The position numbers and the translations under genes were made by a program. From NCBI GenBank assembly GCA_018711945.1, contig DVHP01000129.1, positions 1 through 37,291 on the forward strand: a stretch of DNA of 37,291 nucleotides, in the 5' to 3' direction. The notes under the pieces are model-generated. The model was not told the origin of the DNA, did no database searches, and saw only the letters and a list, made by a program, of their open reading frames with translations. This document shows positions 17,515 through 18,240 of this stretch, piece by piece; within the stretch, counting starts at the first letter, position 1; every line of letters starts with the position of its first letter. Source of the DNA: Candidatus Ventrenecus avicola. GTDB taxonomy: Bacteria > Bacillota_I > Bacilli_A > RF39 > UBA660.

Positions 17515-17996
17515 CTATATTTCAACCATTTCTTTATTATATTCCAAACACTTTTCTTCTAAAACTAAATAATTACAACATCGATTTTTTACACGGAACG
17601 ATAATTTATCTTCCTTATATAGATGATAAAGCAATAGTGATTTTTTATAAACCTCTTCCTTATGCTTATTAAGCCATCTTAATTGATTTTTTAATAATTC
17701 ATATCTAAAATATTCGCCCATATCATCAGGCACTTTATTTAACGGAATCTCTTGATAGTTAGCAGGTGTAACAGGGATCATATTATTAAAGTTTATTGCC
17801 CCTAGCACTCCATGATCAATCTTCATAAAATCAATGGTATCATTCATCCTTCTATGTTTTGTTTTTGGGCTAGATAAAGGCGCAAAATAGTCAATATCAT
17901 GAACTCGAAACAAAATACCAATAAAAGGTCGAAGTTTCTTTACTGTGAGTTAATCGTTACAAATTTAATTTTAGTATATTGTGTGAACTGTAACAA
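17515..17996 (-). pseudogene. toxN: ToxN/AbiQ-family type III toxin gene, broken near its 5' end
   Basis: Family toxins are endoribonucleases held inactive by a repeat RNA. The long frame reads KKLRPFIGILFRVHDIDYFA, PLSSPKTKHR, GAINFNNMIPV, a helical region and RCCNYLVLEEK, all ToxN/AbiQ hallmarks. It is open only from about 17940, where an in-frame TAA lies just upstream; the first TTG is at 17913, with no ribosome-binding site. Just upstream, in another frame, lies KFVTINSQ, the expected start of the protein, with AGGTGA and a TTG at 17996 before it. About 15-18 residues that normally join these pieces, including catalytic Tyr and Lys positions, are missing. A deletion of roughly 50 bp with frame loss explains this; the toxin is probably dead. 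Confidence 0.78.
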
Positions 17997-18069
17997 AATA
18001 TTCACCTGCCTTTTCATTAGTAGATTGTATAAGAAAAGATAAGGATATTTTGTCGATTTCTGTCACAAC

Positions 18070-18098
18070 AAAAAAAGATTAGAGTTTGCTCTCTAATC
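18070..18098 (-). terminator. Terminator between antitoxin RNA and toxN
   Basis: GATTAGAG (18098-18091 on the minus strand), 6-nt loop, CTCTAATC (18084-18077), then seven Ts. In type III loci such a leaky terminator sets the ratio of antitoxin RNA to toxin mRNA. Confidence 0.88.
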
Positions 18099-18109
18099 CT
18101 GCATTTTTC

Positions 18110-18184
18110 ACTGCCATATATAGGGCTGGCTTCACCCACTTTTTTTACTGCCATTTCTAGGGGCTGGCTTCACCCCACTTTTTT
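18110..18184 (-). repeat. Two contiguous 37-38-nt antitoxin repeats
   Basis: Unit 1 is 18184-18147 (38 nt) and unit 2 is 18146-18110 (37 nt) on the minus strand. They differ only in the lengths of the A-run and G/C arms and in the A/T-rich linker. The units abut with no spacer. Confidence 0.9.
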
Positions 18185-18211
18185 AAACTTTACAATTTCT
18201 TGTACATCCAT

Positions 18212-18240
18212 AATCTAACATAAAAATATTAATTTGTCCA
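18212..18240 (-). promoter_or_regulatory. Promoter of the ToxI-like RNA
   Basis: On the minus strand TGGACA (18240-18235), 17 nt, TAGATT (18217-18212). The start would fall near 18205, about 20 nt before the first repeat. Confidence 0.6.

Follow-up and report, generated by a model that had tools for sequence, protein, structure and literature searches.

A type III toxin-antitoxin locus on the chromosome of Candidatus Ventrenecus avicola, with a recently broken ToxN gene and a retained pseudoknot antitoxin array

Introduction

Why does a bacterial chromosome keep an intact RNA antitoxin beside a broken toxin gene? This question is raised by a locus upstream of rpsB in Candidatus Ventrenecus avicola, for which a preliminary description, made from the sequence alone, had proposed a type III layout with an intact pseudoknot antitoxin and a damaged ToxN frame. 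It had suggested that the RNA may act against an incoming or second ToxN ("anti-addiction") or, alternatively, that the damage is recent. Protection by an antitoxin alone has been described for a protein antitoxin and, in the case of ToxI, in an escape phage. By amplifying ToxI-like repeats, a phage evades ToxIN (PMC3475682), and a toxin-free array can thus work in trans. An anti-addiction model for chromosomal antitoxins has likewise been described (PMC2654758).

Materials and Methods

The window, i.e. the whole stretch of DNA analysed (37,291 nucleotides, contig DVHP01000129.1), comes from a 77% complete assembly of 144 contigs. Pairing within the antitoxin was assessed by aligning the last repeat together with the terminator from 22 loci; folding energies of single repeats are uninformative, since the RNA folding program used is unable to form pseudoknots. 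Promoter-like sites were located by a consensus scan. In total, 386 genomes of the window's bacterial family were scanned with a covariance model (last repeat plus terminator) and with PF13958, and public genomes were scanned for the repeat pattern. All arrays with no adjacent ToxN match were inspected, and those at contig ends (L238, L255, L257, L259, L260), those resting on weak or terminator-only matches (L261, L263-L267, L269) and those with toxin remnants (L254, L268) were excluded from the set of solitary arrays.

Results

The whole locus lies on the minus strand (18240-17515), at coordinates close to those of the preliminary description. Along this strand a small membrane-protein ORF (18372-18253) is followed by a promoter-like site, two 37-39-nt repeats, a terminator, the broken toxin gene and rpsB. 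The promoter-like site (18212-18240) consists of TGGACA, a 17-nt spacer and TAGATT, with a TG before the second hexamer (extended -10). The scan is weak evidence by itself, with 11 such matches in the region against 6.5 expected; the site is also conserved in two sister species, G012 and G030. The intrinsic terminator (18068-18100, minus strand) separates antitoxin and toxin and has a hairpin of 10 pairs (18100-18075) and a T tail (z -4.0). It is conserved in sequence across most related type III loci (alignment A1).

Two further observations concern these flanking elements. The terminator sequence TTAGAGAGCNNACTCTAA is common to most type III loci of the bacterial family (alignment A1; L001-L010, L231-L253) and is kept even between different repeat classes, a conservation that exceeds the needs of a plain terminator. 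Many arrays of different repeat classes (e.g. L003, L007, L147) are preceded by a 5' leader, CATAAGTGATTATGTTATGC..TGCATATAATA, which the window array lacks.

Both repeats, whose cores are 88% identical, fit the H-type pseudoknot that had been proposed for them. In repeat 1 (18140-18178, minus strand) stem S1 joins GGGG (18176-18173) to CCCC (18163-18160) and stem S2 joins GCCA (18168-18165) to TGGC (18153-18150); in repeat 2 (18103-18139, minus strand) S1 joins GGG (18137-18135) to CCC (18125-18123) and S2 joins GCCA (18130-18127) to TGGC (18116-18113). Across the 22-locus alignment, with 21 distinct sequences, 98.4% of the cells are paired and six pairs have changed on both sides. The covariation score is 0.236 against 0.113 after shuffling, with none of 500 shuffles as high, and sliding the partner columns by one to three positions destroys the signal. 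Given the degree of pairing, the two-sided changes and the shuffling result, the pairing does not arise by chance. Two-sided compensatory changes are seen in both S1 and S2; the middle repeat of G012, for instance, has GCCG/CGGC where others have GCCA/TGGC. These changes in relatives back the predicted pairing and support an H-type pseudoknot fold of the repeats. No type III antitoxin family in Rfam matches the repeat sequence at gathering or loose thresholds, which agrees with the earlier suggestion of a new antitoxin variant; against novelty, the same repeat class adjoins intact ToxN in many related genomes.

The toxin gene is split over two frames. In profile searches, the frame at 17949-17515 (minus strand), which encodes the last 144 codons of an endoribonuclease toxin of the ToxN/AbiQ family, matches PF13958 (Pfam ToxN_toxin) with 103.9 bits (cut-off 25, E 1e-29) and the PADLOC AbiQ profile with E 2e-26, and it also matches the ToxN and AbiQ structures 4ato, 7d8o, 2xd0 and 4glk. 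This frame is out of phase with the start. The N-terminal piece (17940-18017, minus strand) begins at ATG 18017 or, more likely, at GTG 18005. Relative to G012, one 52-bp deletion near 17945 accounts for the split and causes the N-terminal piece to run into a stop at 17940. With this deletion and the frameshift, the window copy does not encode an intact, expressed endoribonuclease toxin. Between the window and G012 the rest of the toxin has a dN of 0.007-0.026 and a dS of 0.06-0.12 (dN/dS about 0.1-0.2), from which it follows that the break is recent. The alternative of recent damage is thus borne out for the window itself. The locus is chromosomal and belongs to the ToxIN/AbiQ family of type III toxin-antitoxin systems, as a toxin-defective derivative rather than a working pair, and the core of the preliminary description was upheld in every test made.

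Split or truncated ToxN genes also adjoin arrays in nine other genomes (G157, G113, G258, G268, G280, G300:C3, G308, G334 and G232:C16); the breakdown of a toxin beside a retained array is therefore a repeated event.

At the same site, G012 has three repeats and an open toxin frame, the latter read from two contig ends that are both open in the expected frame and share 77 identical bases but are unjoined. Set against G012, the window is missing a single complete repeat of 37 bp and 52 bp of the N-terminal toxin region. In G030 the toxin is reduced to a 3' stub of about 110 nt with in-frame stops, and both repeats and the terminator are intact. Of 102 array positions, two differ between the window and G030, neither of them among the 76 core bases; in the toxin stub, 13 of 108 positions differ (Fisher p 0.006). 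The three species thus form a series at one site, with the toxin intact (G012), broken (window) and nearly gone (G030) and the array retained. No array was found upstream of rpsB in other members of the genus whose region was readable, the stretch being short or missing in some. The dS of rpsB (0.33) and tsf (0.27) between the sisters exceeds that of the toxin remnant, so the locus was probably exchanged between them. Both the toxin remnant and the flanks point to recombination between the sisters in the recent past, and conservation at the window site could hence partly reflect recent exchange.

In the 386 family genomes, arrays occur in 95 and ToxN in 80. ToxN lies downstream within 700 bp in 76 of the 115 arrays and is absent in 39, about 25 of which proved to be genuine solitary arrays, with the terminator kept and varied, unrelated genes downstream. 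Most solitary arrays are free of any toxin remnant. Among those tested, the downstream genes encode a helix-turn-helix protein, an ABC transporter, UPF0004, a histidine phosphatase, an SRP54-type protein, a class I tRNA synthetase, a GTPase and peptidase U32. The pattern scan of public genomes found the window repeat class in many Bacilli draft genomes, where some arrays adjoin ToxN (two with visibly split toxins) and some do not, and added eight to ten solitary loci. The search of relatives for the same repeat beside an intact toxin, as earlier proposed, found this repeat class in such a position in many related genomes. Nine of 12 genomes with such toxin-less arrays contain no ToxN anywhere, but these genomes are incomplete. 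Repeats with no toxin gene nearby, which the preliminary description would have counted against a type III locus, thus do occur in part of the genomes; since these repeats are found next to intact ToxN as well, the ToxI assignment stands, and the toxin-less relatives point to antitoxin-only loci.

Two other arrangements were seen in addition. Second arrays lie downstream of intact ToxN at L103:640-1100 and L068/L238 (G445:C9); those of L103 are framed by two nearly identical copies of a long leader, possibly a structured RNA. Ahead of the peptidase U32 gene, three repeats and a terminator are present in one species and the terminator alone in another, as if the repeats had been lost (L259 = G420:C47:248-314; L129).

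Are solitary arrays maintained? Pseudoknot-forming units make up 81% of 77 solitary repeats, 85% of 157 linked repeats and 7% of shuffled ones. In 28 distinct repeats taken from solitary arrays alone, 98.5% of cells are paired and five pairs have changed on both sides; the covariation score is 0.468 against 0.188 shuffled, and none of 500 shuffles is as high. One solitary array, at a glycosidase locus, is present in only two of 20 related species; between these two its repeat cores are identical at a dS of about 1.5 in the adjacent gene, a pattern of maintenance that gene conversion or repeated acquisition could mimic. Three orthologous copies at another solitary locus are too close to be informative. 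Antitoxin has been kept without a functional cognate toxin in the window, in G030 and in the approximately 25 solitary arrays; retention of the array after toxin loss is therefore an observed state.

The window genome has a second, intact ToxN with an open frame on another contig (G000:C2:6711-7187; PF13958 4e-45; L001, L027), whose three repeats belong to another class (GGTGATTCCCACC..GGAA) and are 10-12 edits away from those of the window. The solitary and the resident toxin-linked class differ in every comparable genome (the window genome, G048, G453, G186, G122 and G397), so that the retained RNA does not duplicate what the resident system supplies. This non-redundancy fits immunity to non-resident toxins and, equally, relics of separate systems. 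Matching repeat cores adjoin toxins elsewhere: the core of window repeat 2 equals that of the repeats beside an intact ToxN in L112, which is 62% identical to the window remnant, and 18 of 64 tested cores are identical to toxin-adjacent cores in other genomes, many more being one base off. Viral contigs contained none of the exact repeats looked for; a search of them for the repeat pattern gave 14 stretches lacking a ToxN match, and a ToxN scan gave two distant relatives only (36-43% identical). Among plasmids no carrier of the window's exact class was found, because plasmid ToxN genes were all below 60% identity.

Discussion

The explanation that we hold to be probable is a recent loss of the toxin with retention of the antitoxin RNA, possibly as anti-addiction immunity. 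A 52-bp frameshifting deletion recently inactivated the toxin, leaving the promoter-like site, the two putative pseudoknot repeats and the terminator in place. From this layout we infer that the antitoxin RNA is probably still transcribed up to the terminator. With the resident precursor-cutting toxin dead, the RNA would stay in its precursor form unless an incoming ToxN with matching specificity cut it; it would bind such a toxin head-to-tail and thereby neutralise it. Protection requires roughly two repeats in type III systems (1.8 for antiQ, 2.5 for ToxI of Pectobacterium; PMC5086642), and the two of the window may therefore be enough. The locus would represent one stage of a family-wide series in which the toxin is intact, then broken, then gone and the array is retained, and retained arrays would most likely persist because they confer immunity against ToxN systems brought in with other DNA. 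The anti-addiction idea of the preliminary description is strengthened by the near-loss of the toxin in G030 and by the roughly 25 solitary arrays, but it is unproved.

Any such account has to be weighed against neutral decay. A costly ToxN would often be lost and the antitoxin would necessarily be the last to go, since a cell that lost it first would die; neutrality thus also predicts, at first, that the toxin disappears and the array stays, and all toxin-less arrays would be young remnants drifting to decay. Several visibly broken linked toxins, the recency of the break in the window and the patchy glycosidase-locus array, by which arrays come and go, are in line with such a scenario. It is difficult to reconcile with the solitary arrays, most of which have no toxin remnant and yet are paired as well as the linked ones, with compensatory pairs maintained. 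Nor would drift readily leave repeat cores unchanged at near-saturated synonymous divergence, as in one species pair, or the G030 array so much less changed than its toxin stub. We therefore consider neutral decay unlikely, albeit worth serious attention. A toxin-less array might also serve as antitoxin source for a ToxN elsewhere in the same genome, a role for which the window genome offers the intact ToxN on contig C2; this toxin comes with three repeats of a different class, the classes also differ in G048, G453, G186, G122 and G397, and nine of the 12 (incomplete) genomes checked lack ToxN altogether, all of which makes pairing in trans highly improbable. Least credible of all is that the toxin is not truly broken. 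The gap was read from a single contig of a draft genome and might reflect misassembly or a mixture of strains; alternatively, the C-terminal frame, which stays open over 144 codons and has a TTG at 17913, might yield a truncated but active toxin from a start further downstream. Against this, the gap does not coincide with a repeat, the truncated product would lack an N-terminal segment conserved in every intact relative aligned, and the deeper decay at the same site in G030 argues against an error that could in principle have occurred.

The locus shares with ToxIN/AbiQ (PF13958; 2xd0, 4ato, 4glk, 7d8o) the order of repeats, terminator and ToxN, the toxin homology and repeats of 34-38 nt with an H-type pseudoknot and an A-rich linker; it differs in its broken toxin frame, its mere two repeats and a repeat sequence that has no Rfam family. 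Like the pseudo-ToxI of phage PhiTE (PMC3475682), which suppresses ToxN in trans, the solitary arrays are toxin-free ToxI-like repeats. In contrast to PhiTE pseudo-ToxI, which is phage-encoded and selected as defence escape, they are chromosomal, have their own terminator and stand beside host genes. A chromosomal antitoxin is also found in ccd of Erwinia chrysanthemi (PMC2654758), which protects the cell from an incoming homologous toxin. There, however, an intact type II pair with a protein antitoxin is at work, whereas here the antitoxin is an RNA, often toxin-less, and protection is putative. The ToxIN/AbiQ family is known; toxin-less type III arrays as common chromosomal elements are, as far as can be told, new, since no report of such solitary or orphan arrays was found in the part of the literature that was searched.

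Searches that begin with the toxin overlook a sizeable fraction of ToxI loci (39 of the 115 arrays have no adjacent ToxN match, about 25 after strict checking). A broader reading, which we offer tentatively and rate somewhat below an even chance, is that the type III antitoxin arrays of this family are independent chromosomal RNA genes under selection, providing ToxI-only immunity that pre-empts transferred addiction or defence ToxN, with the window in transition from a toxin-antitoxin pair to an antitoxin-only locus. If the arrays do protect cells, the anti-addiction model would become directly testable with an RNA of about 40 nt, and RNA antitoxins would serve as an inherited repertoire of immunity to ToxN systems that enter the cell.
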